Shown here piece by piece: positions 1 through 46,021 of a stretch of DNA of 47,143 bases. The stretch's first letter is position 1. The number at the start of each line of letters is the position of its first letter. This stretch comes from a virus. A program made the translations under genes and the position numbers. The notes beneath the pieces are model-generated. The model made no database searches. It had not been told where the DNA came from and saw only the letters and a program-made list of their open reading frames with translations. The stretch spans positions 1 through 47,143 of IMG/VR virus record IMGVR_UViG_3300021378_001197; one strand, given 5' to 3'.

Positions 1-389
1 AGCATTCCTGCTTGTGACCACATAGTGCTACTCATAGCACCTACTTGTCCTCTGTTCTTGTAAGTGTTAAGTCTACCTACAATATAGTCTGAACTCTGTC
101 CTGCTAGTTTAGGAAATACTGCCATACCTTGTCCTTCCATTCCGTGACAAGCGGCACACCCTGCCCATAAACTTCTGATGTCACTGAACTCGTCCAAGTT
201 AGCCAATGCTTGTTTGCGTTGCTCTATCTCTGATGCTGTGCCATTAAGTGCTACATAGTCTACATAGCATTGTCCAGTACACGAACTGTTACTGCTGTAA
301 CCAGTGTATTCTAAATTTGGATATACTTTAGCAACAAAGAAAATACCTATTGCTAAAACTCCTAACATTGTCATTCCTAATTCTTTCAT
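1..389 (-). CDS. c-type cytochrome (class I), C-terminus cut by window edge
   Basis: An open frame starts at ATG 389 and runs off the left edge, giving about 129 residues. Residues ~4-20 form a hydrophobic signal-anchor, followed by a spacer with a CTGQC Cys pair. The heme motif CAACH lies at 158..144 and is followed by GMEGQG, FPKLAGQ and a Met that could be the axial ligand, as in cytochrome c4/c5-type proteins. Such proteins are exported and heme-loaded by the host Ccm machinery, so this one should be membrane-anchored in the periplasm. ATG overlaps the stop of the upstream gene (ATGA), indicating coupled translation. Function in the phage is unknown; altering host electron flow is an inference. 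The heme-domain identity is solid, the subfamily less so. Confidence 0.85.
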   Translation of the reverse strand, partial: MKELGMTMLGVLAIGIFFVAKVYPNLEYTGYSSNSSCTGQCYVDYVALNGTASEIEQRKQALANLDEFSDIRSLWAGCAACHGMEGQGMAVFPKLAGQSSDYIVGRLNTYKNRGQVGAMSSTMWSQAGM

Positions 390-19508: not shown

Positions 19509-22013
19509 TTAACTTACGCCGCTAGGATCTTCGTCTTCTATATCTAATTCTAATTTGTAGTTCGCATCATCTATAGCAGGAACTTCTAAACTGTTTTCTA
19601 AGTAATGTTTAGCACTACTCATATATGTACCTGCTTTAGTAACTTTTGCTTGCCACCAATTAGGGAAGTCTGAATCTGGTAAGTCCCCTAGCATTTTAAA
19701 TAATTCTACACAATACTTGCCTGTTTGGTAAAGTTGCCTTCTAATCATATCACGTTCATTGTCAACGTGACCTATTGCAACTTTCTTCATTGTACCCATA
19801 TCGTGTACTGGATCAATCTCTACATCGTCTTCCATTACAACACTTTCATTTATCTTGCTGTTAAAGTCTAAAACCTTAGTCTTCTTTGGTTCTGCTTCTG
19901 CTGGTTGACCTGGAAGTAGTTCCATAAATCTTTTTGCTGAATTAGGTTCTGCTACAACATCACTTAATGCTTTTACTAATGCTGAACCTTCTTGTCTTTC
20001 TGCTGGTGCAAGTTTAGTAAAGTCTCCTGCAACCATTTTCTCTAGAGCATTTAGTGCCATACTAATATTATTAATACCTACTTTGTCTCTAATTCTTGAT
20101 ATATCTCCTGTGCCAACTTCTGCTTCTGAAGTTAAACCTGCTAGTTCTTTTATTCTATCTAACTCTTCATTTGCGTGGTCGTGTCCTGGACAAGTACAAT
20201 CTTTTTCCATTCTACCACAATCTGGACATCTGTTATTTTCTCGAGCCTTATTAATAGGAGCCATATGTCTTAAATATCTATCCATTGGTGCTTCTTCGGC
20301 TTCATCGATGTCTCTTACATCTTCTCTTGCACCTTCTAAACCTTTTTGTTGCACCATTGTGATGTAATCTTGAATCACTTCGTTTGCATACTTCTCATCC
20401 ATACCTTCTGGATTTGTAAACATCAATGCACCTAAATCTTCTACACATTGCTCTTCGCTTTCGCAATTATTAATTACACCTACGCAATCTGTCATAGCAA
20501 TATCAAAAGCATTGCCGCCTTCTTGCACATATTGTTCTAATGTATATTCTTCGTCCTCACCGTCAAGTTTAAACTTTGTGCCTTTTGGCATACCTTTTGC
20601 TTTTAGATCCTGTACTTTTTTAGCAAATTTGTTCTGTTCTGCAACTTCGCCTTCTTCAACTTCGTCACCTACGCCGTGTCCCTTGTGGAACCAAGATTCT
20701 AATTCAGCCTGTATATCTTGTTCTTCTGTTTCAAAGTATGTGAAGTCATCTGCTACTTCTTTGGTTTCACCTTCTGGAGATGTAATTGATAGTTTGTGAA
20801 CTGTGTAACCGTTTCTCTCACCATTATATTCTAATGTATAAGAGTACTCGCCTTCATCTTGAGGACCATCTGGATCTATAAATGGTTCATTACTTGTATG
20901 GTGATAACCATCTGGATTGTTTGCTTCTTCAAGTTCACCTTCGAACTTTGCAACTACACCTTTACTGTGTACTAAATCTTTTAATTCCCCAAACCCTACT
21001 GTTGATTGTAACTTAGCAAGGAACTTTTCTTTTGGTTGAGGTTTCTGTATAATATGTAATAGACTTCTTAATGCCATTGCTTCTGGAACTGAAACTTTAA
21101 TGTCATCGCCATCGTCTGTTTTAATATGTTGTACTGGTTTGTACTTGTCTGCATCAACTACGTCTTTGATTGATTCGCTATCAATAATTTTTCCTAATTG
21201 GTCATACACACTTTTCTCTTTAAATCCAGGTCCAAACTCTGCATCGTCTGATGGCAAAGAGCCTGTATCTACTGTGTATTCATCTTCATTTATTCCTGCG
21301 AGTTGGCGCATTCTTTTTAAATCTATTTGTTCCATTTGTTCTTCCTTTGCTAATTTGGTTCTAATTAAATTAAAAACCTCTTCATTGTATTTATCATATA
21401 AATCAACAAATGCCTGCTTTGCTGTATCGACATCGCCGCCTAATATGTTCCTTATTTCACTTGCACTCTTAACACTAAAGCCTGCTACGTTAAATGGTTT
21501 AGTATCTAAAGTTATAACGTATGCCCTTCTACTTGCTTTATCGCCCACTGGTCTTATATCTTTTTCTTCTGCAGGTAATCTCTGTAATGCTTTCTCTTTG
21601 CCTTTTGCCGTCATAGCCAATCCTGTTGTGGGAAATTGGAATCTAGCATCAGGTCCGTCCATATCCTTTTGACTGACTGCCAAGTACAATGAATTAGTGT
21701 CTTCATCTATATCTAAAGCATTTATATACTCTTCTATGTTGTATGGACTAGTCTTAACTTCCATAATAGCATCTGCAGGAATGCCTGCAAGTATCATCAT
21801 TTGTTTCTTTTCTTCAAATGTAAACGGCGAATCCGTATCATTTGTTTTGTCTGATGTTGCTATAACTACTTTGGAATTAGGATATTGGCTCTTTAGTGAT
21901 TCATAAATGGACTTGTGTCCTTTATGGAATGGATGAAACCTACCAGGAAATACTACCACAGGCTCAATAGAGTCTGCTTCGAATAATGCTAATATGTTAA
22001 AATTGTAATCCAT
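19509..22013 (-). CDS. Large fusion: HxGH nucleotidyltransferase + Zn-ribbon + structural-type tail
   Basis: 834 residues. Residues ~18-200 are a nucleotidyltransferase with VVFPGRFHPFHKGHKS (HxGH), of the NMN/pantetheine-phosphate adenylyltransferase type. After it come two copies of the short tag RMRQLAGINE / RIKELAGL, a CPDCGRMEKDCTCPGHDH zinc-ribbon, and a long acidic, largely disordered region. The architecture looks like an enzyme attached to a virion or scaffold component. ATG 22013 has no Shine-Dalgarno; an ATAAATA motif ends 6 nt before it. Confidence 0.72.
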   Translation of the reverse strand: MDYNFNILALFEADSIEPVVVFPGRFHPFHKGHKSIYESLKSQYPNSKVVIATSDKTNDTDSPFTFEEKKQMMILAGIPADAIMEVKTSPYNIEEYINALDIDEDTNSLYLAVSQKDMDGPDARFQFPTTGLAMTAKGKEKALQRLPAEEKDIRPVGDKASRRAYVITLDTKPFNVAGFSVKSASEIRNILGGDVDTAKQAFVDLYDKYNEEVFNLIRTKLAKEEQMEQIDLKRMRQLAGINEDEYTVDTGSLPSDDAEFGPGFKEKSVYDQLGKIIDSESIKDVVDADKYKPVQHIKTDDGDDIKVSVPEAMALRSLLHIIQKPQPKEKFLAKLQSTVGFGELKDLVHSKGVVAKFEGELEEANNPDGYHHTSNEPFIDPDGPQDEGEYSYTLEYNGERNGYTVHKLSITSPEGETKEVADDFTYFETEEQDIQAELESWFHKGHGVGDEVEEGEVAEQNKFAKKVQDLKAKGMPKGTKFKLDGEDEEYTLEQYVQEGGNAFDIAMTDCVGVINNCESEEQCVEDLGALMFTNPEGMDEKYANEVIQDYITMVQQKGLEGAREDVRDIDEAEEAPMDRYLRHMAPINKARENNRCPDCGRMEKDCTCPGHDHANEELDRIKELAGLTSEAEVGTGDISRIRDKVGINNISMALNALEKMVAGDFTKLAPAERQEGSALVKALSDVVAEPNSAKRFMELLPGQPAEAEPKKTKVLDFNSKINESVVMEDDVEIDPVHDMGTMKKVAIGHVDNERDMIRRQLYQTGKYCVELFKMLGDLPDSDFPNWWQAKVTKAGTYMSSAKHYLENSLEVPAIDDANYKLELDIEDEDPSGVS

Positions 22014-22031: not shown

Positions 22032-22703
22032 TTAGATAGAAACTGATTGAGGATCCTTTAAGTGTAATGCATCAGGAGTTACTTGTCCTGTTATAGTTAG
22101 GCAGTATCTGGGCCAGTAACCTACGTTACCTGTTGCGTGATAAACTCCTTCTCTCCAACAATGTATGTCTCCTATCCTATATTGATGTATAGGAGTGTTG
22201 CCTATTAACACATAGTGACCCCAGTTCCAATCATTTAGTTGTACCAAGTATCGTATAACTTCTGTATCATCACTAACTTTAGCAAAGTTACGTCTATAAT
22301 TATTATAACTATCTCTATGCCAAGGAATGGATCTACCTGGTGGTTGTTCTAAAAACATTATTTGTGGATCTTTAAGACCACTCAACTCTGCCATTTTATG
22401 AAACTCTTCTGGTAAGTCATCGCGTCTTTGGTTGCCGCCTGTGTTGTGGCTAGTAAAACCTGCACGAGTTAAGTCATTGTGATAGCCTTCCATTATTTCT
22501 GCGGCTTCTTTGTTGTAAGGAGTGCCTTTAATACTTACTTCATCGTATGCATCGTCAGTTGTGAACTGTGATGCTGTATTGGCAACAACATCTGCTAAAT
22601 CTTCTTTTACAAATCGTCCTACATATTGTACATCGACTTCTCTACTTGCTGGATCAAAGTGCCAATCAAAATTTTCTTTGTTCCATTTCCAATAACTATC
22701 CAT
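22032..22703 (-). CDS. Fe(II)/2-oxoglutarate oxygenase (Asp/Asn beta-hydroxylase-like)
   Basis: 223 residues. The HxD facial-triad part lies in SIPWHRDSYNNYRR; the distal His and the co-substrate Arg fit GDIHCWREGVYHATGN and WPRYCLTITG. Sequence between (VIRYLVQLNDWNWGHYVLIG) has the double-stranded beta-helix pattern. Such enzymes hydroxylate a protein side chain or a small molecule. The N-terminus shares the DW..DPA(S/T)R segment with 18827. It overlaps the GH6 gene stop by 8 nt. Confidence 0.78.
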   Translation of the reverse strand: MDSYWKWNKENFDWHFDPASREVDVQYVGRFVKEDLADVVANTASQFTTDDAYDEVSIKGTPYNKEAAEIMEGYHNDLTRAGFTSHNTGGNQRRDDLPEEFHKMAELSGLKDPQIMFLEQPPGRSIPWHRDSYNNYRRNFAKVSDDTEVIRYLVQLNDWNWGHYVLIGNTPIHQYRIGDIHCWREGVYHATGNVGYWPRYCLTITGQVTPDALHLKDPQSVSI

Positions 22704-23547
22704 TATAATTTGAATTCCTCACTAATTCCTCAGCCATTTCGCCCCACATTCTTCCTGCTCTCGGGCCGTTGTTTTTTGTTCCATCTGACTCTCCAGGTAT
22801 CTTTACCCATAAAAGAGCATCACATTTATCTACATTTGTATCAGTAGTTGGCAACTCTCCTAAGGCTCTTCCTGGAGGATTGCACCATTCATTCCCATAA
22901 GGACCATTACCATTGCGACTAGTGTCTATTACAAAGTAATCATTGGGACGGTGTTCACATACTTTAAGTGCCCACTCTGTACATTCTTTTGTTGTCCTGT
23001 AATTACTTATATTTACACTAAATCCCCTTATTTTATCATTAGATACGGCATCTAACAGTTTGCCTGCTTCACTAGGATTAAGCCAATTGCTATGTCCTAC
23101 GTCTATATAAACTATTGCATTAGACTTTTCTGTGAGCATATTCAATGCTGTCTTCATCATTTCAAGCCGCCACAGGGCATCTGCTTTGCTCATATGAGTT
23201 GTATGCGGTAAAGCATCTGGTTCGAATATAACAATAGGTTTTCTTTGTCCTATGCCTTCTGCAAACTGTTCAATAAAGGAATAGTAGTATTCTTCTGTTC
23301 TTGCACCGCCTTTGCTGTATTGTCCTACATCACGTTGCGGTAAGTTGTATATGCAAAATATAGGTTCGTAGTCACCTGCACGTTTATACAGTCTTTGTAA
23401 ACTTTCTTTTAATTTCTTTACAGGGCGTTTATCTCGTTGACCATACCATAATGCTAATGGCTGTTTGAATATTATTTTACTTAAAGGGTATTGTTCTTCG
23501 TAATCTCTAACACGGTTATAGTCCCATACCCAAAACGGATACTGCAT
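22696..23547 (-). CDS. Glycoside hydrolase family 6 (cellulase/cellobiohydrolase-type)
   Basis: 283 residues, near the size of a GH6 catalytic core. Motifs in order: CIYNLPQRDVGQYS (Asp73), VIFEPDALPH (Asp111), VYIDVGHSNWLNP, GFSVNISNYR, FVIDTSRNGNGP, WCNPPGRALG and LLWVKIPGESDG (Asp255). The three Asp match GH6 catalytic positions (RD, EPDALP, PGE(S/C)DG). GH6 enzymes invert beta-1,4-glucan bonds. There is no signal peptide or carbohydrate-binding module, so it may act inside the cell or as part of a virion. Its neighbour is an oxygenase on one side and peptide deformylase on the other. Confidence 0.92.
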   Translation of the reverse strand: MQYPFWVWDYNRVRDYEEQYPLSKIIFKQPLALWYGQRDKRPVKKLKESLQRLYKRAGDYEPIFCIYNLPQRDVGQYSKGGARTEEYYYSFIEQFAEGIGQRKPIVIFEPDALPHTTHMSKADALWRLEMMKTALNMLTEKSNAIVYIDVGHSNWLNPSEAGKLLDAVSNDKIRGFSVNISNYRTTKECTEWALKVCEHRPNDYFVIDTSRNGNGPYGNEWCNPPGRALGELPTTDTNVDKCDALLWVKIPGESDGTKNNGPRAGRMWGEMAEELVRNSNYNG

Positions 23548-23548
23548 T

Positions 23549-24109
23549 CTATTTCCTTGCTTGACTAAACTTCTTTAATAGTTTATCTCGTTTCTTTATA
23601 GCACGTTGTAGTTTAAAGTCGCTGGCATATTCTATAAACAGCCTACCATCTAAGTGGTCGTATTCGTGTTGGAAAATACGTGAGTCCCACTCGTCTAATT
23701 CTTCTACTACTTCTTTCTTGTTTGAGTCTTGGTACTTAACTTTAATTATTTTGGGTCTAGTCAAATGAATAAACAATGCAGGAAAACTTAAACAGCCTTC
23801 TTCCATAGTTATTTGTTCCTCACTGACGTCTAGTATCTCTGGATTGTATACTCCAATATGTCCTTTTGTTGAATGACGCATAGCAAAGAATTTAACAGCA
23901 TCGCCTACTTGCGGAGATGCTAACCCTATACCATAATTGTGTACCATAGTGTTAAACATCTTTTCTTCGTGTCCAACTACTTCACCGTCGTTGCTCCAAA
24001 CCAAGTCACTCTTAAAAGGATCTAAATCTATTTTAACTCTTAGTATAGGATCGTTAGTGGGTACTAAATTTAATTTTTGTATATCGTTTGCGTCTACTAC
24101 ATCTACCAT
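23549..24109 (-). CDS. def: Peptide deformylase
   Basis: 186 residues from ATG 24109. A longer frame from 24196 reads 29 extra residues through the upstream gene and is rejected. The three family motifs are complete: GIGLASPQVG, EEGCLSFP and FQHEYDHLDG, supplying the Cys and two His that bind the metal. It removes the formyl group from new proteins and is found in many marine phages. Overlaps the DUF3307-like gene by 7 nt. Confidence 0.93.
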   Translation of the reverse strand: MVDVVDANDIQKLNLVPTNDPILRVKIDLDPFKSDLVWSNDGEVVGHEEKMFNTMVHNYGIGLASPQVGDAVKFFAMRHSTKGHIGVYNPEILDVSEEQITMEEGCLSFPALFIHLTRPKIIKVKYQDSNKKEVVEELDEWDSRIFQHEYDHLDGRLFIEYASDFKLQRAIKKRDKLLKKFSQARK

Positions 24110-24480
24110 AAGTATATTCCTGTTGTTGTTACAAATCCTATTATAACAAAATATGTAATCAAATGCAAGAGTTGATCCGTTCCGTGCAATACCCAAAACA
24201 TTTGATCCGAAGAACTATATTTATTTCTTCTCATCAAGTTACTCTTAGTGTAGTCTATGTGATAGTGTATAATAGTATCAAATAAAAATGCTAGTAAAAG
24301 TAAATTAAGTTCAAACCCAAAACATAATAAAACTAAAAAAGTTCCTACGCCGTGAGCAACTGAATGCGATAATCCTTTTAGGTTTCCATATGTAGCCTTG
24401 TTGAGATACATAAATGGAAACTGCAAGTAGTAATCGATTACAATGTGTTTAAATATAAAGGCTAGCCATAATGTGTTCAT
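24103..24480 (-). CDS. DUF3307-like integral membrane protein
   Basis: 125 residues, three to four hydrophobic helices. HIVIDYYLQFPFMYLNK near the start, SHSVAHG, HYHIDYTKS and DQLLHLI give the His/Asp/Gln/Lys pattern of DUF3307 membrane proteins of unknown function. The start ATG 24480 overlaps the stop of the glycosyltransferase (TAATG), so it is translated together with that gene. Confidence 0.7.
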   Translation of the reverse strand: MNTLWLAFIFKHIVIDYYLQFPFMYLNKATYGNLKGLSHSVAHGVGTFLVLLCFGFELNLLLLAFLFDTIIHYHIDYTKSNLMRRNKYSSSDQMFWVLHGTDQLLHLITYFVIIGFVTTTGIYLW

Positions 24481-25289
24481 TATAATCCAGAGCCGACTCC
24501 CTTAGCATTCTTACGTTCTTCTTGCCATTCCTCGTAAGGATTAACTTCATTAGTTATTACTTTATTAAAGTACTCTTGTGTTTCTGGTTGACCAATCTTA
24601 CTACAGAACCAACTAATTTTGTGCATACAATGTTCTCTTGCTTTTGTCATATTAGGATGCTGGAAGTCTTCTGGATCATTTGGATTGCCTTCTTTGTATA
24701 TTCTATTCCTAAATGTGTCGTCATCATTATTACCTGTTAGGTCAAATCTATCGTGTAATATATCTATTTCAATAGGTTTAAGTACGTTTAATGCCTTTGC
24801 TATTGTGCTAATCCAAGCATCGTTTTGTGCATTTAAACTAAAGTAACCTATTAATAAGTACCAATCAATTGGTACAATAGGAAACAATGCGTATGGATGT
24901 GGATGATTAGTTTGATTCATTTTAAATACTGCAAACTTATCTTCTTGTTCTGATAATATTGTATCCCATCCTTTGGTTTGTAAAATACAATCATCGTTCC
25001 ATAGTACCAAGTAATCTCCTGATGCATATCCACATAAAGCATTCACGTATTCGTGTAGTTTACTATATCCCAAAGGATTAAACTTCAATACTTTAGTGTC
25101 GTTGTTGTAACCTTCTAATATCTTAGGTAGTTCGTTTGCTACATAGTCTGCTGTGTCTTGGTCGTCATTGTCTACACCAAGTAATAATTCAATCTCTGAA
25201 GGATTGTCTGCTGTTTCCATAATGCTAAGAATTGATTTCTCTAGCATTTCTTTTCTTTCCCTTGTGGGTATTAAAAATGATGTTCTCAT
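24480..25289 (-). CDS. GT-A-type glycosyltransferase (GT2-like)
   Basis: 269 residues. RTSFLIPTRERKEMLEKSI, ELLLGVDNDDQDTAD and GDYLVLWNDDCILQ follow the GT2 order: nucleotide-binding start, then the DxD-like WNDD metal site. It would transfer a sugar from a nucleotide donor. Together with 25291, SEKT proteins, the SDR and the nucleotidyltransferase it makes a sizeable sugar-modification set. Acceptor unknown. Confidence 0.8.
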   Translation of the reverse strand: MRTSFLIPTRERKEMLEKSILSIMETADNPSEIELLLGVDNDDQDTADYVANELPKILEGYNNDTKVLKFNPLGYSKLHEYVNALCGYASGDYLVLWNDDCILQTKGWDTILSEQEDKFAVFKMNQTNHPHPYALFPIVPIDWYLLIGYFSLNAQNDAWISTIAKALNVLKPIEIDILHDRFDLTGNNDDDTFRNRIYKEGNPNDPEDFQHPNMTKAREHCMHKISWFCSKIGQPETQEYFNKVITNEVNPYEEWQEERKNAKGVGSGL

Positions 25290-25290
25290 A

Positions 25291-26358
25291 TTATTTCTTC
25301 TTTGTTACTTGCTCTATTTCAACTGGCTCTGCTGGTGCTGGTGGTTGACCTGCTACTTGCGGTTTGTCGAACTCAGGCATAAGTCTAATAGGTCTATCGT
25401 CCATTCCTTGTCTATATAACTCTCCTACATTAGATACATTATCGCCACCTATAATCTTTCTCACATTACCTCTAAATGTGTAATGTCCACTATGGTTAAG
25501 TGCTACTCTAGGATCTAACCAAATCTCTCCACCCATATCCTGCCAACGTCTACAGAATGTGTAGTCCTCTGACAAGTAACGTCTGCTTTCTGGATCAATG
25601 ATACAATCAAATAACGCATACATATACTGTTCAAATTTAGGATCAATGTTTAAGTCATTGTTGTATTTGAACTCAGGGTGTTTATCAAACATCTGTTGTA
25701 TTGTGTCTCGCCTAATACACATAAATCCTGTGCCACCATCTAACAATCTAATCAAGTTGTCTGTGATTTTGATGTTAGGCATTTTGTTGCCTTGTTCATC
25801 TTTTTCAAAGTCAAAGTTTACAACGTAATTTGAACTGTGTCCTTCAATAGTGTTTGCGTTTTCAGTAGGATCTTTTCTTGCCGCATTTATAATGCTATCC
25901 CAATTGATTGCTTTCTTAGGATATGCACCTACTGTGATTGGCTTATCATATGCCAACATTCTCAATACATCTTCTGCATTAAACTCTATATCTGCATCAA
26001 TAAAAAACAAATGAGTTGCTGTGGTATTTTCCATAAAGAAACTAACAAGTGTGTTACGTCCTCTAGTAATTAAACTTTCATTTGCTAGTGTACTGATAGT
26101 ATATTGAATATTGTATTGTGAACACATTAGAACTAATTTCATCATACTTCTAAAATATGGTTCTAATATTTGTCCACCGTAACAAGGTGTTGCAATAAAC
26201 AAATGCTTATCTTGAAATGCTTCTATAGGAATCTCAATCTTTCTCTCTAAAAGATTATATAAAGTCTGCTCCTGAGCAGTAAAAGATGCTTTTCTTTCTG
26301 AAGCCTTCTTAGATTGTAGTTTGCCAGTGGACTTTTTCTTTCTAGGTTTATTTGACAT
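25291..26358 (-). CDS. GT-A-type glycosyltransferase-like protein
   Basis: 355 residues. A Lys-rich N-terminus (about 30 residues) precedes HLFIATPCYGGQ, a middle ITRGRNTLVSFFM and HLFFIDADIEFN with the D-x-D metal motif, then EDYTFCRRWQDMGGEIWLDP, which is typical of the acceptor half of GT-A enzymes. The C-terminus is Pro/Ala-rich. Preceded by AAAGGA and an ATAAATA motif 15 nt upstream. It is directly upstream of the GT2-like gene (1-nt gap). Confidence 0.75.
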   Translation of the reverse strand: MSNKPRKKKSTGKLQSKKASERKASFTAQEQTLYNLLERKIEIPIEAFQDKHLFIATPCYGGQILEPYFRSMMKLVLMCSQYNIQYTISTLANESLITRGRNTLVSFFMENTTATHLFFIDADIEFNAEDVLRMLAYDKPITVGAYPKKAINWDSIINAARKDPTENANTIEGHSSNYVVNFDFEKDEQGNKMPNIKITDNLIRLLDGGTGFMCIRRDTIQQMFDKHPEFKYNNDLNIDPKFEQYMYALFDCIIDPESRRYLSEDYTFCRRWQDMGGEIWLDPRVALNHSGHYTFRGNVRKIIGGDNVSNVGELYRQGMDDRPIRLMPEFDKPQVAGQPPAPAEPVEIEQVTKKK

Positions 26359-27341: not shown

Positions 27342-27417
27342 TGGTACTCCCTAGGGGAGTCGAACCCCTGTTGCCGAGATGAAAACCCGGTGTCCTAGGC
27401 CTCTAGACGAAGGGAGC
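27342..27417 (-). tRNA. tRNA-Glu (anticodon TTC)
   Basis: Acceptor GCTCCCT pairs with AGGGAGT, followed by A and an encoded CCA. The anticodon stem CCGGG/CTCGG (one G-U) holds loop TTTTCAT, giving anticodon TTC. T-arm GTTCGAC is normal. It reads the GAA codon, common in this AT-rich genome. Driven by the sigma-70 promoter at 27531-27559. Confidence 0.93.
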
Positions 27418-27422
27418 AAATG

Positions 27423-27482
27423 TGAGCAGGCAGTACACTTAGGGATTTACCCAATTTACGAAATACCATTCGTGCCTGCTCA
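27423..27482 (-). ncRNA. Candidate three-way-junction RNA upstream of tRNA-Glu
   Basis: A perfect 10-bp stem joins TGAGCAGGCA and its complement (27423-27432 with 27473-27482). The 40-nt interior contains two further hairpins: GGG/CCC at 27442-27444 and 27450-27452, and CGAA/TTCG at 27459-27462 and 27469-27472. It has no CCA or T-loop, so it is not a tRNA. It begins ~45 nt after the strong promoter at 27531-27559 and ends 5 nt before the tRNA-Glu 5' end on the same strand, so the two are co-transcribed. Role unknown. Confidence 0.55.
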
Positions 27483-27530
27483 AAACTTGTAACTTGTAGA
27501 GGGTTCCTATGTTTCATTCTACTTGCTACT

Positions 27531-27559
27531 ATTATACTGAAATTGTATAATATTGTCAA
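27531..27559 (-). promoter_or_regulatory. Consensus sigma-70 promoter before the structured RNA and tRNA-Glu
   Basis: Minus strand TTGACA (27559..27554), 17-nt spacer, TATAAT (27536..27531). All elements are consensus. Its transcript would start near 27524 and contain the three-way-junction element and tRNA-Glu. Confidence 0.82.
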
Positions 27560-27562
27560 CCG

Positions 27563-27820
27563 TTAAGCAACTTCTAACATTGACAAAGGAACATTATAAC
27601 GACCCTCTGGCAAGTTTACTATTGCTTTCTTGATGTTTACTTTTTCAACAGTACCCAAAGTACGTTTAGTTTTTTGAACTACATACACTTGGTCACCTAC
27701 GTTGATAGAAGCCTTAGCCTGAAGTGTCATTGTGCTTCTAGTAAACTCAATTAGTGAAGACAACTCATCGTGAGTAAATCCACCTCTTGCTATATCTTGT
27801 TTGATTTGATTTAAATTCAT
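27563..27820 (-). CDS. Small SH3/KOW-like protein
   Basis: 85 residues. A helical first half (MNLNQIKQDIARGGFTHDEL) is followed by a beta-rich INVGDQVYVVQKTKRTLGTV and EKVNIKKAIVNLPEGRYNVP that resembles KOW/SH3-like RNA-binding folds. GTAGGAGTAG stands before ATG 27820. A consensus sigma-70 promoter lies at 27853-27881, so expression is likely early. Confidence 0.72.
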   Translation of the reverse strand: MNLNQIKQDIARGGFTHDELSSLIEFTRSTMTLQAKASINVGDQVYVVQKTKRTLGTVEKVNIKKAIVNLPEGRYNVPLSMLEVA

Positions 27821-27852
27821 TAACTACTCCTACTTAATTAAACTATACATAT

Positions 27853-27881
27853 ATTATACTAAATTAAGTAGGTAGTGTCAA
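27853..27881 (-). promoter_or_regulatory. Consensus sigma-70 promoter before the KOW-like gene
   Basis: Minus strand TTGACA (27881..27876), 17-nt spacer, TATAAT (27858..27853); the -35 begins 9 nt after the tRNA-Asp 3' end. Confidence 0.8.
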
Positions 27882-27889
27882 CCGAATAT

Positions 27890-27964
27890 TGGCGGTCTGA
27901 CGGGGAATCGAACCCCGAACACCGCCGTGACAGGGCGGAATTATAACCGTTTAACTACCAGACC
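27890..27964 (-). tRNA. tRNA-Asp (anticodon GTC)
   Basis: Acceptor GGTCTGG pairs with TCAGACC, discriminator G, encoded CCA. Anticodon stem CCGCC/GGCGG with loop CTGTCAC gives GTC. T-arm CGGGGTTCGATTCCCCG is perfect. Seven bases separate it from tRNA-Ala. Confidence 0.94.
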
Positions 27965-27970
27965 GGTTAA

Positions 27971-28046
27971 TGGTGGAGCCACGCGGGTTCGAACCGCGGA
28001 CCTTCTGGTTGCAAACCAGACGTTCTCCCAACTGAACTATGGCCCC
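27971..28046 (-). tRNA. tRNA-Ala (anticodon TGC)
   Basis: Acceptor GGGGCCA pairs with TGGCTCC (one G-U pair), discriminator A, encoded CCA. Anticodon stem TCTGG/CCAGA with loop TTTGCAA gives TGC. T-arm CGCGGTTCGAACCCGCG. Confidence 0.94.
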
Positions 28047-28054
28047 TGTAAACT

Positions 28055-28282
28055 TTAACTTGCTTTTCTATTCAAGTATGCTTTCATTCTATCGCCAACT
28101 GCTTTAGAGTTTCTAGCAACATTGTTGCCAATTGTTTCAGCATTCTTCATAAGGTTCTTACTGATTTGCTCTGCGTTCCTTTGAATGTTCGCCGCAATAA
28201 CTTTACCGTCCCACGGATTAGTTGTTGCTTTTTTTGTAACTTTCTTTGTTACTGCTGTTTTGGTTGCTTTTGCTTTTACCAT
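28055..28282 (-). CDS. Small basic helical protein, unknown
   Basis: 75 residues. A Lys/Thr/Ala-rich N-terminus (VKAKATKTAVTKKVTKKATT) is followed by amphipathic helices with repeating N-A-E-x-I and N-V-A-R-N patterns. No family recognised; composition is that of a nucleic-acid-binding or histone-tail-like protein. AGGACAATAAA precedes ATG 28282. It lies between tRNA-Ala and tRNA-Thr. Confidence 0.65.
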   Translation of the reverse strand: MVKAKATKTAVTKKVTKKATTNPWDGKVIAANIQRNAEQISKNLMKNAETIGNNVARNSKAVGDRMKAYLNRKAS

Positions 28283-28293
28283 TTTATTGTCCT

Positions 28294-28330
28294 GTTGCGT
28301 ATTGCAACGTTATTAATGTCCTCCAAGAGG
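28294..28330 (-). other. Two small hairpins between tRNA-Thr and the 75-aa gene
   Basis: GTTGC/GCAAC (28294-28298 and 28304-28308) and CCTC/GAGG (28320-28323 and 28327-28330) can each fold with a 3-5 nt loop. They may be tRNA-processing or mRNA-stability signals. Short and therefore uncertain. Confidence 0.3.
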
Positions 28331-28338
28331 TCCTGTAA

Positions 28339-28413
28339 TGGTGCTGAAGGAGGGAATCGAACCCCCAACCTACTGATTACAAATCAGTTGCTCTACCGTT
28401 GAGCCACTTCAGC
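28339..28413 (-). tRNA. tRNA-Thr (anticodon TGT)
   Basis: Acceptor GCTGAAG pairs with CTTCAGC, discriminator A, encoded CCA. Anticodon stem ACTGA/TCAGT with loop TTTGTAA gives TGT. T-arm GGGGTTCGATTCCC. First of the tRNA cluster, 12 nt after an ATAAATA motif. Confidence 0.94.
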
Positions 28414-31357: not shown

Positions 31358-32983
31358 TTAAGGCTTCTCTTCCGCCGAATAAGTAAATGCGTGGAAGTTC
31401 CTTTCACTAAATGTACCATCACCGTTATCAACTGTGTATACTTCTGAAGCATTAATAATGTTTGTACTATTAACTTCAGTTAAGAATATACCAATGTTAA
31501 AATGTCTTGGATAAGCAACACCGTTAGAGTCTGTACCTATAAGCACAAAGTTATAAAGTGTATCTGCACTAATACCTGACATTGAAGTTGAATCTGCTGT
31601 GATTCTGTTGTTAGTAGTATCTAATGTAAAGATACTTGGTAAACTTGCATACGAGGCTGATGATAAAGTAACACCTGCTCCTACGTCTAAGTCAAAACTA
31701 ATTGTATCTGTTTTTAAATGGTTACCAATTGATCCTGCAGGAGTATTCCATACAGTAGCATAGTAACTGTTTTCTACATACACAATGTTGTTTGGTGTAC
31801 CACTATATGTTGATTCATCTCTGAACAACATACCTGTTAGTGATTGTGAAACTAAGTAGTCTTTAATACTTTCTGAATCTGGTGTACCGTTCATACTGCT
31901 CTTTTCAATTGCTAGAGCCGCCGCACCTGCTACAATAGAGCAAGAACAACTAGTTCCACTTGATAGTCTAAAGTCAGATGTAGTATTATGCTGAGCAACT
32001 GTAACATTAACACCTGGAGCAAAAATATCTAATTGCTCACCGTATGGGTTAAGTCCTGTTCCAGTTGAGTCTGATCCTGGAGGGAAGTTAGTAAATGTTG
32101 TCATAGCATCTGTTTGGTCACTAGCACCTACAGTAACAATAGTATCTAACCCTGCTGGGGAATAATCATTAACGTCGTTGCCGTGATTACCAGCCGCCGC
32201 CACTATAACTGTATTCTTATTAACTCTTAACCATTCGCACACATAATCAATTACGGGGGATTTGTTTGTGTACCAAGGTGTACAAATTACTTGGGGCATT
32301 GTTTTATATCTGAACATTTCATTGTTTAATGAAACATTGGAATATCTAATAGTGTTATCAGTAGTTGATAAGGCGTCCCATTCTGTATTAATATGAATAA
32401 TTCTGCCTACTCTGTATCCTTCAATCTTATCAAAGCCTTCAACTATGTCTTTAAGATCACCTATACCAGTAGCATCGTGAATCTTACAGTTATGTAAGTG
32501 TGCATTTCTGGCAACACCTACAGTTTCACCTACAATTAAACTAGCCATTGCAGTACCGTGTCCTGATGCATCTTGGTAATCGCCACTTAATGATGTGTGA
32601 ACATTAGTAATTGTTGCATTTGCAAATTCATCGTGGTCAGCATCAATGCCGCTGTCCATTAAATAAATGTTTACGCCGTCACCTGTATAAGTTGCGTCAT
32701 ATTCTGTTCTTAAAGGTAAGTTTCTAGTTACCAATCTTTGTAAATGCCAGTGACTTGTTGCTTCACTTGTTACAAAGGAGTTTGCTGAAGTACCTTCTTT
32801 AAATTGAAATCCAGTTAATCCATCTATGTTATCAACTTGATCTGCTGGAACATCGACTAGTAATAAAGATTTTTCTTCTTCTGACAAGTCTTGATATCTT
32901 TTAGAGACCGTTCCGCCAAGTCCCGTAATCGCCGTATTAGCAGTATCACCTGCTTGGTCAATTTTAACTATGAATTCTGCCAT
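31358..32983 (-). CDS. Subtilisin-like serine protease (S8) with C-terminal Ig-like domain
   Basis: 541 residues. The catalytic triad is complete: Asp110 (MDSGID), His142 (GHGTAMAS), Ser345 (SGTSCSC), with the oxyanion Asn266 (AAGNHG). An N-terminal ~80-residue I9-like domain precedes it. Past residue ~405 comes a beta-rich domain (TISFDLDVGAGVTLSSASYA) like Ig/cadherin-type virion domains. No signal peptide. It could be a tail-borne protease, a pro-protein processing enzyme, or the protease of the adjoining radical SAM system. The start ATG lies 16 nt inside the PP-loop gene. Confidence 0.9.
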   Translation of the reverse strand: MAEFIVKIDQAGDTANTAITGLGGTVSKRYQDLSEEEKSLLLVDVPADQVDNIDGLTGFQFKEGTSANSFVTSEATSHWHLQRLVTRNLPLRTEYDATYTGDGVNIYLMDSGIDADHDEFANATITNVHTSLSGDYQDASGHGTAMASLIVGETVGVARNAHLHNCKIHDATGIGDLKDIVEGFDKIEGYRVGRIIHINTEWDALSTTDNTIRYSNVSLNNEMFRYKTMPQVICTPWYTNKSPVIDYVCEWLRVNKNTVIVAAAGNHGNDVNDYSPAGLDTIVTVGASDQTDAMTTFTNFPPGSDSTGTGLNPYGEQLDIFAPGVNVTVAQHNTTSDFRLSSGTSCSCSIVAGAAALAIEKSSMNGTPDSESIKDYLVSQSLTGMLFRDESTYSGTPNNIVYVENSYYATVWNTPAGSIGNHLKTDTISFDLDVGAGVTLSSASYASLPSIFTLDTTNNRITADSTSMSGISADTLYNFVLIGTDSNGVAYPRHFNIGIFLTEVNSTNIINASEVYTVDNGDGTFSERNFHAFTYSAEEKP

Positions 32984-38331: not shown

Positions 38332-38784
38332 TTACTTTACTATCCTTTGTATGTCTGAATTCTTTCCTATCGTATTAAAGATTAGAAAATCTTCCTTAAT
38401 GTTATTATAATTATCTATCTTGCCAGGTGTAATATTAAAACATTGATTGTCTATCATAAAAACTAATCCTGCTTGACCAGTGATATGATTATCTACTATA
38501 TGCCAAGTTGCATTATTATAGCACACTTTATCTAGTGCTGTCAATGTATCAAATAATAAAAGATTAACTCCGCTGTAACAAAACATTTTGTTTGTTAAGA
38601 TGTCCCAGCAATCGGGCCAGGACTTGTGAGTGTAATAATCAAAATTGTTACTATCATATTTAACCAAATTGAAACTTTCAACTATGGTTTCAGGGGAACT
38701 AGAGGCGTGAATTTCTCTGAACTCTCTCCAGGCGTCTAATCGTTTTTGAGGTGTTGTAAATCTATCTAATATCATCCAAGCCAT
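38332..38784 (-). CDS. Unknown phage protein, 150 aa
   Basis: Soluble alpha/beta protein with aromatic-rich segments (FDYYTHKSWPDCWDIL, ATWHIVDNHITGQAG). No known domain. Start ATG 38784 lies 13 nt inside the tail-fibre-like gene and its stop abuts the glutaredoxin start, so it is made in the same operon. Confidence 0.6.
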   Translation of the reverse strand: MAWMILDRFTTPQKRLDAWREFREIHASSSPETIVESFNLVKYDSNNFDYYTHKSWPDCWDILTNKMFCYSGVNLLLFDTLTALDKVCYNNATWHIVDNHITGQAGLVFMIDNQCFNITPGKIDNYNNIKEDFLIFNTIGKNSDIQRIVK

Positions 38785-43909: not shown

Positions 43910-46021
43910 TTAGTGTAGACGGTCTACAAGTTTTGCAATATCTTTAACCTGTTTTACATAGTCTTCTGTTTCATCTGACAGTAAAAAGTAAACATATCTA
44001 AACAAGTCTTCTGGAGCAAAAATAAATTTTGTTGCTAATGCTTTGTCAAGTTGTTGATTTACTTGTCGTTTTATTAAGTCTCCCATTTCCAATGTCTGTA
44101 ACTGTTTAATAGAGTCGTCTATTGCTATAAGTAATTCTTCTGATTGTTTATAAGATTCTATAGTAGATATTACGTCACCTTTACTTGTTGTTTCTTTTAA
44201 CTTTCTAAAAAACTCATTAGTAGTTTCAACTCTAACAGGAAGTTTTTCTGCATAGGAATTAAATACTGCAAGAAAAGTTTTTATTACATCTATACTTTCA
44301 TCTATAGATTCGTATGCTTTGTCTGGTAATAACTTTAGTAAGTATGTTGACCTCATTATTGCTTTGATTTCGTGGTCACGTTTGTCTTTTGCATCAGGAA
44401 ACTCTGGGTAAAGTTCATCACCTGTTAATTTGTTTAGTTTGATGTCTACACCTTTTTGTTGGTCAAAAGCCACAACTCTGTTAGGGTAACGTTTAATCAA
44501 ACTACTCCACATTCTCTGTGCAGATGGTGTTTGAGTATAGTCTGAATATAACGGCACATTCTTCCAGGCACTAAAGGCAATGTACAGTTTCAATGCTCTG
44601 CCTTGTCCTTGTATACTAGGATCTAATGCTGTTGTTAAAACTTTGTAGCCGTCCTCATAATTTTCCAATGTTAAGTATCCTAAAATTTCTTTGTTATACT
44701 GAGGACTTTTTGGATCTTTGTTTGTTGGTCTTCCCAAAAAGAAATCCTTAACTTTCTGCATAAATGTCTCTTTGGGTATAGTACCAATCATTACGTTCTT
44801 TACATAAAAAATAAACAGTTTACCATCTTTGTACCATACTTCTGTAGGACTTTGTATAGTAGGTATAGGGCCTAAACTTGTACCTGCGGCATAGGATTTC
44901 TCAGGATCGTAATCATATTTAGGTGTTGTGTCTGTTGAAGCAATACGATACGCATTTGAAGGAACTCCTTTAAAACTATCAGCATCTTTTTTATATGGTG
45001 CTTCAACCAAAGTATTCAGTTTGTTCTTCCACTGTTGCTCTTTGCTTTCTGTTTGTTTTGTATCTTGTAGTCCAGGGTGGTCATTTAATTCTTCTACTGA
45101 AAAGTTAGATACTTTTAATACTGTAACTGCATCTACTTTTAATCTTTTTGCGGCTTCTAATCTATGATGTCCATTAATAATTCTGTTGTCTTTGTCTATA
45201 ATAATAGGCTTATCTTTATACTGTGGATCTTTGTTGCCATAAAAGTCGTTCATTACTTTTAAAACTAAATCTGGTTTTAAATCTTTAGGATCCTGGGATG
45301 GTACAATATCATCTCTACTAAAATTATCTAATCTTTGATATTTTATACGATGCTTAATTAAATCAGGCTCTTTGACTTGTACCATATTCTTTCTTTCTAT
45401 TCTTTTACTAAAAATTTTATCAAAAGCATTTTGGTCATACATTTCTTTTGCAATATCTTCTTCTAATGATTCTGATAACCTTATCACACCACAAGCAACT
45501 CTGTCACCTGCATTGCCTGTTTTTAAACTTTCGTCATCTCCACCATTGCCTAAGTCGTCTTCATCTTGATGTAAAACAAATGCTCTGCCAACTACACTAT
45601 ACTCGCCTACTAGGTCTATCCTAGGAGCAACTATTTTAAATTTTGCAATGCCGTCTTGGTCTGCAACCACATTACCTAAATCTCCTATATGTCCTGATTT
45701 AATATCACCGTGGTCAACACCGTGTGGGTTGTAATGCCCTCCTGCACTTTCGCAACCTTTACTGAGGTCACCAAATTCGTGTATGTGAAATCCGTGTTTG
45801 CCTGGAGTTAGTCCTTTAAAGATACCTTTAATAATTGTTTCTTCATCGGGTTTTTGTGTTACTGTAGCATAGCCTGTAAAGCCGTCTATTGACTTATGTT
45901 CAAATTCGCATACTGCTTTAACAGTTTCTTGTGCTTCTGTAATAGCATTTACTTTGTCGCATTGGCACTTTAACTCTTTTGTCCTAGGACACTTATCGAC
46001 TACTATGCTTTTAAGTCTCAA
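43910..46021 (-). CDS. Cu/Zn superoxide dismutase + ParB-like + GNAT fusion, TTG start
   Basis: 703 residues. Residues ~33-182 are a full Cu/Zn-SOD: His79 and His81 (GFHIH), His96, His104, His111, Asp114, His151, with Cys90 and Cys177 as the expected disulfide. Residues ~215-310 are ParB/Srx-like (IIDKDNRIINGHHRLEAAKR). Residues ~395-515 are GNAT-like (DPSIQGQGRALKLYIAF, SAQRMWSSLIKRYP). The C-terminal ~190 residues are helical. Start TTG 46021 is fixed by AGGAG at the right spacing; no upstream ATG exists. Probably a virion-associated multi-enzyme; each domain's activity is predicted only. Confidence 0.85.
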   Translation of the reverse strand: MRLKSIVVDKCPRTKELKCQCDKVNAITEAQETVKAVCEFEHKSIDGFTGYATVTQKPDEETIIKGIFKGLTPGKHGFHIHEFGDLSKGCESAGGHYNPHGVDHGDIKSGHIGDLGNVVADQDGIAKFKIVAPRIDLVGEYSVVGRAFVLHQDEDDLGNGGDDESLKTGNAGDRVACGVIRLSESLEEDIAKEMYDQNAFDKIFSKRIERKNMVQVKEPDLIKHRIKYQRLDNFSRDDIVPSQDPKDLKPDLVLKVMNDFYGNKDPQYKDKPIIIDKDNRIINGHHRLEAAKRLKVDAVTVLKVSNFSVEELNDHPGLQDTKQTESKEQQWKNKLNTLVEAPYKKDADSFKGVPSNAYRIASTDTTPKYDYDPEKSYAAGTSLGPIPTIQSPTEVWYKDGKLFIFYVKNVMIGTIPKETFMQKVKDFFLGRPTNKDPKSPQYNKEILGYLTLENYEDGYKVLTTALDPSIQGQGRALKLYIAFSAWKNVPLYSDYTQTPSAQRMWSSLIKRYPNRVVAFDQQKGVDIKLNKLTGDELYPEFPDAKDKRDHEIKAIMRSTYLLKLLPDKAYESIDESIDVIKTFLAVFNSYAEKLPVRVETTNEFFRKLKETTSKGDVISTIESYKQSEELLIAIDDSIKQLQTLEMGDLIKRQVNQQLDKALATKFIFAPEDLFRYVYFLLSDETEDYVKQVKDIAKLVDRLH

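Follow-up and report, generated by a model that had tools for sequence, protein, structure and literature searches.

The window analysed here, a 47-kb fragment (47,143 nucleotides) from an IMG/VR record classed as a virus (IMGVR_UViG_3300021378_001197), carries a gene for a glycoside hydrolase of family GH6 within a same-strand run of enzyme genes (Table 1). GH6 is a textbook family of secreted cellulases. The open reading frame begins with ATG on the minus strand and encodes 283 amino acids. The initial annotation, which gave no strand, had proposed a GH6-type enzyme to be checked by profile search and structure prediction, and both approaches bear this out. In the Pfam profile search, PF01341 (Glyco_hydro_6) matched residues 24-261 with 181.1 bits (E 6e-53), well above its curated cut-off of 27 bits. 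The solved structures closest in sequence are all GH6 enzymes, namely Mycobacterium tuberculosis Cel6 (1up0/1uoz, E 3e-47), 6fao and Thermobifida fusca Cel6A (1tml), with no top match outside the family. An AlphaFold2 model (pLDDT 82.7, pTM 0.87) likewise has GH6 chains as its closest PDB folds, with a TM score of 0.85 to the M. tuberculosis endoglucanase Cel6 (1up0) and 0.81 to the T. fusca endoglucanase Cel6A. The product is a full GH6 glycoside hydrolase by sequence and fold. Its short, endo-type length and the endoglucanases among its top structural matches suggest endo-beta-1,4-glucanase activity. No family was assigned to the protein in PHROGs or NCBIfam, and a library of predicted viral structures gave no named GH6 match to the model.

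Table 1. Positions of the GH6 gene, its diagnostic codons, neighbouring genes and promoter-like sites in the window.
Feature	Position	Strand	Evidence or occurrence
GH6 glycoside hydrolase gene	22696..23547	minus	PF01341, 181 bits; Cel6 endoglucanase fold match
D73 codon, first catalytic Asp	23329..23331	minus	84/84 viral, 80/80 bacterial sequences
V74 codon, site of first disulfide-1 Cys in secreted GH6	23326..23328	minus	Cys in 0/84 viral, 79/80 bacterial sequences
D111 codon, catalytic acid by analogy with T. fusca D117	23215..23217	minus	84/84 viral, 80/80 bacterial sequences
D149 codon	23101..23103	minus	84/84 viral sequences
D255 codon	22783..22785	minus	84/84 viral, 80/80 bacterial sequences
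Peptide deformylase gene, directly upstream, 1-bp gap	23549..24196	minus	PF01327, 124.6 bits
Next gene, overlapping the GH6 stop; 223 aa, oxygenase-like by eye	22032..22703	minus	No family match; cluster in 23/84 loci
834-aa protein, cytidylyltransferase-like domain	19509..22013	minus	PF01467, phrog_395; cluster in 64/84 loci
GT2-like glycosyltransferase	24480..25289	minus	PF00535, phrog_14945; cluster in 46/84 loci
phrog_1574 protein of unknown function	25291..26358	minus	Cluster in 36/84 loci
Perfect sigma-70 consensus, TTGACA-17-TATAAT, above the GH6 run	27531..27559	minus	
Second perfect sigma-70 consensus, TTGACA-17-TATAAT, above the GH6 run	27853..27881	minus	

The enzyme belongs to a sizeable viral group. 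The window protein alone found 36 loci in IMG/VR, and a profile search returned 159 stretches encoding relatives, the best 80 of which were taken further. After removal of contig duplicates, the viral set compared here comprised the window and 83 long relatives, so that at least 84 viral contigs, window included, carry this GH6 family. The relatives are 44-99.6% (that is, up to ~100%) identical to the window protein, and each of the 46 contigs searched for copy number held a single GH6 gene. An alignment of these 84 viral sequences with 80 bacterial GH6 sequences revealed that the three catalytic aspartates recognised in the initial annotation (D73, D111 and D255) are present and invariant across the viral set. 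Further residues, W34, Y67, R72, E109, W155, N182, R211, W247, K249 and E253, are likewise found in all 84 viral sequences; their subsites are presumed to be those of T. fusca Cel6A. The catalytic residues and key substrate contacts of the window enzyme are therefore intact, as read from the alignment.

Close viral pairs gave dN/dS values of 0.03-0.11, which places the viral GH6 genes under strong purifying selection. One near-identical pair gave 0.25, a value derived from too few changes, and dS was saturated in one further pair. These ratios and the profile scores exclude a chance match, and the ratios together with the intact residues rule out a dead relic. When 36 viral and 41 bacterial representatives were placed in an unrooted maximum-likelihood tree, all viral sequences fell on one side of a branch with support 99/91 and a stem of 0.45, a topology consistent with a single acquisition and a long subsequent residence in phages. 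The best explanation of these sequence data is that a phage lineage acquired the gene and has kept it. GH6 appears to be accessory rather than essential to these phages, because contigs with related neighbours lack it: 39 of the 66 contigs with one conserved neighbour cluster have GH6 in the stretch examined, and 24 of the other 27 contained none when searched whole, all of these contigs being fragments.

The viral enzymes differ from secreted GH6 proteins at the N-terminus. In the window protein the conserved YPF stretch begins at residue 3 and the open frame spans 292 codons from stop to stop, which leaves no place for a hidden signal peptide. The other viral frames are also short, and only 3-14 residues precede the conserved proline of YPF in all 84 copies, whereas nearly all bacterial relatives, judged by eye, have a long leader ahead of the domain. 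Judging from these frames, there is no room for a signal peptide in any viral copy compared, in agreement with the earlier description of the phage enzyme as leaderless.

The disulfide cysteines have changed as well. Disulfide 1, which we take to be C80-C125 in T. fusca, is missing throughout the viral set (Table 1), and on the tree its loss is a single ancestral change, not many independent ones. Both cysteines of disulfide 2 are retained in 20 of 84 viral sequences versus 76 of 80 bacterial ones; the window protein has Lys where the second would be, and Cys258 has been altered at least five times within the viral tree. Conversely, 79 of 84 viral sequences but none of the 80 bacterial ones contain Cys242, which by the sequence may pair with Cys222 (window numbering). 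The two cysteines occur together in those 79 viral sequences and are both missing from the remaining five (L111 and L114-L117), in which Trp221 is replaced by His. The loss of export and of disulfides beside an untouched active site fits folding in a reducing cytosol.

The genes around GH6 are mostly enzymes. The deformylase cluster occurs in 64 of 84 loci and lies immediately upstream of GH6 in 48; in the window, the true start of the deformylase gene may lie downstream of the listed TTG. Deformylase was also considered as a marker for GH6 and rejected: deformylase genes are widespread, and 77 of 79 loci with the window's deformylase have no GH6 nearby. The downstream partner varies by lineage and includes 2OG-FeII_Oxy_3, DUF6445, Asp_Arg_Hydrox (below the curated cut-off) and methyltransferase genes, as well as proteins that by eye look GDSL-like or glycosyltransferase-like. 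The slot after GH6 is thus often oxygenase-like but of a type that differs between lineages, as if refilled, and these changing partners show no pathway. Neither a holin nor an endolysin gene was identified next to GH6, and the recurrent 'RMRxLAGI'-like motif, considered as a possible capsid tag, is absent from GH6. Four tRNA genes (Glu, Asp, Ala and Thr) lie at 27342-28413, on the same strand and upstream of the GH6 gene run.

Promoter-like sites hint at how the run may be transcribed. The window contains seven perfect sigma-70 sites (TTGACA-16..18-TATAAT), all on the minus strand, versus 0.17 expected from first-order Markov shuffles. They are located at positions 1638, 9344, 27559, 27881, 29541, 38544 and 43876; the matches at 38544 and 43876 lie within reading frames, and some of the seven may therefore not be promoters. 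Related viral loci have 108 perfect sites in 1.12 Mb, and perfect or one-mismatch sites occur upstream in most relatives. This pattern suggests that the host polymerase may transcribe the GH6 run. The T4 late promoter TATAAATA was found twice in the window versus ~11 expected by a rough base-composition estimate, a comparison that is not informative. Together with the loss of disulfides and the coupling to the deformylase gene, the sigma-70 promoters point to synthesis in the cytosol.

One GH6 relative lies on a 340-kb T4-like contig that also encodes the gp20 portal and gp23 capsid proteins, and its gp23 is ~70% identical to that of jumbo phages of Pseudomonas, among them MIJ3 and PA5oct. Because GH6 shares a contig with both structural genes, bacterial contamination is unlikely. 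gp20 was not found in the window, and the other 44 contigs, possibly incomplete ones, yielded neither gp20 nor gp23; T4-like membership is thus established for one relative and presumed for the rest. Cyanobacterial hosts were considered and are unsupported, psbA (PF00124) being found in 0 of 45 contigs. As for a host clue through isolates, the gene following GH6 in the window had no match in phage records, and the 834-aa cytidylyltransferase-like protein had only weak ones.

Several known GH6 enzymes help to place the viral clade. M. tuberculosis Cel6 (CelA1; 1up0, 1uoz) and T. fusca Cel6A (1tml) resemble it in fold (TM 0.80-0.85), active-site residues and short endo-type length. The sampled secreted relatives, however, have leaders and disulfide cysteines, while the phage clade has neither leader nor disulfide 1. 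The nearest cellular sequence is a GH6 protein from a Pacebacteria MAG (L141), which is leaderless like the viral clade, joins it at 92/94 and is probably the sole bacterial sequence without the disulfide-1 cysteine. Its branch length of 1.56 is too long to trust, which makes the sisterhood unsure. In contrast to the viral loci, its gene is the last of three in a row (L141:124-5783), after one for a GT2 synthase-like protein and one for a PMT-GH8 fusion; the three are possibly a cellulose-synthesis operon.

GH6 genes are also found in the phage records of Streptomyces phage Gilgamesh (gp72) and MT836874, but these are ~33% identical and are placed among actinobacterial GH6 in the tree. Gilgamesh gp72 is in addition larger, and lies behind two genes, one for a minor tail protein and one hypothetical. 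The beta-1,4-glucanases gp094 (GH48) and gp095 (GH5) of Erwinia phage S6 have a tie to host cellulose, which serves as the first receptor, although they belong to other GH families, are multidomain and come from an N4-like phage (PMC9544554). Viral GH6 has further been listed among the auxiliary metabolic genes (AMGs) of Mariana Trench sediment viromes (PMC8725595). The initial annotation had regarded GH6 as known from bacteria and fungi and unexpected in a phage; the phage context held, but the surprise has to be tempered in view of these records and the 84 or more viral contigs with the family. Isolated viral GH6 genes are thus already recorded, and what appears to be new is the clade without leader and disulfide 1. 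No description of a conserved leaderless, disulfide-poor viral GH6 clade was found in the literature searched, which consisted of open-licence papers.

The reading favoured here, tentatively and with somewhat less than even confidence, is that of a phage endo-beta-1,4-glucanase made in the cytosol, probably released by lysis, that would cut beta-glucan of the host matrix. Large and at least partly T4-like phages would have acquired and retained a GH6 gene with an intact active site, and host-type sigma-70 promoters would probably drive it together with tRNA and enzyme genes. Synthesis and folding would take place in the infected cell's reducing cytosol, a location suggested by the absence of leader and disulfide, and the enzyme would probably accumulate there until freed upon lysis, a release that the model assumes. 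The freed enzyme would then cut the cellulose-like beta-glucan in the host matrix around it, which would keep progeny virions from being trapped. Early-type promoters are atypical of lysis-stage enzymes, which counts against this reading. That the enzyme acts on beta-glucan of the host or of a biofilm is plausible, and Erwinia phage S6, as a phage exploiting host cellulose with a cellulase, counts in favour of the matrix as target (PMC9544554). A purpose related to matrix clearing would be receptor destruction, in which released GH6 strips cellulose from debris and neighbouring cells and progeny avoid dead material. Cellulose can indeed serve as a first phage receptor (PMC9544554), but the receptor of these phages is not known and the two purposes are inseparable by sequence; such a role is considered quite improbable. 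An ordinary carbon-metabolism AMG, with the host feeding on environmental cellulose during infection, is the interpretation given to viral GH6 in Mariana Trench sediments (PMC8725595). It is very improbable here, as an unexported enzyme cannot reach outside cellulose before lysis.

The lack of export, the disulfide loss and the sigma-70-type promoters can also be read as signs of action inside the cell, on cytosolic or membrane-side beta-glucan such as nascent cellulose at the synthase or glucan made by the neighbouring glycosyltransferases, which would stop matrix synthesis or free sugar. The GT2-like and phrog_1574 genes near GH6 in many relatives agree with this, as does the genomic setting of the leaderless L141 gene, although that sequence sits on its very long branch. 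Cellulose chains go straight through the membrane as they are made. In bacteria, free cytosolic beta-1,4-glucan is not generally known, which weighs against intracellular action, and on balance it is judged unlikely. A more specific version is rather doubtful: that the phage lineage turned a secreted cellulase cytosolic for an infection-phase role on intracellular or phage-made beta-glucan, together with the glycosyltransferase and oxygenase-like neighbours. Placement in the virion, where the enzyme would clear or bind matrix glucan during entry in the manner of a tailspike depolymerase, had been raised in the initial annotation. Polysaccharide-degrading phage enzymes are often virion parts, gp72 of Gilgamesh comes after tail genes, and the S6 cellulases are tied to the cellulose that this phage uses as its first receptor (PMC9544554). 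The viral enzyme, however, is a bare catalytic domain preceded by 3-14 extra residues across the copies, with neither anchor nor trimerisation domain. In the window it lies outside recognised tail genes, among deformylase, oxygenase-like, cytidylyltransferase-like and GT2-like enzymes, and on the 340-kb contig ~100 kb separate GH6 from gp23. The proposal is thus unsupported, and a virion role appears improbable.

Cytosolic synthesis followed by release, as favoured above, and action within the cell lead to one testable question: whether a lysis-released phage cellulase dissolves the host matrix, or an undescribed beta-glucan exists inside infected cells. Either way, large phages contain a single selected GH6 branch with no export signal or disulfide 1 that is absent from PHROGs and from the predicted viral structure library, and its enzymes may serve as compact cellulases folding in the bacterial cytosol.

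Three further genes of the window are noted here. The protein encoded at 386-1183 fuses a cytidylyltransferase/heptose-phosphate adenylyltransferase-like domain to a mannose-6-phosphate isomerase-like domain, and a 703-aa protein at 43910-46021 combines superoxide dismutase-like and ParB-like parts. A protease gene at 31358-32983 (phrog_3677) has genes for a PAAR and a radical SAM protein close by.
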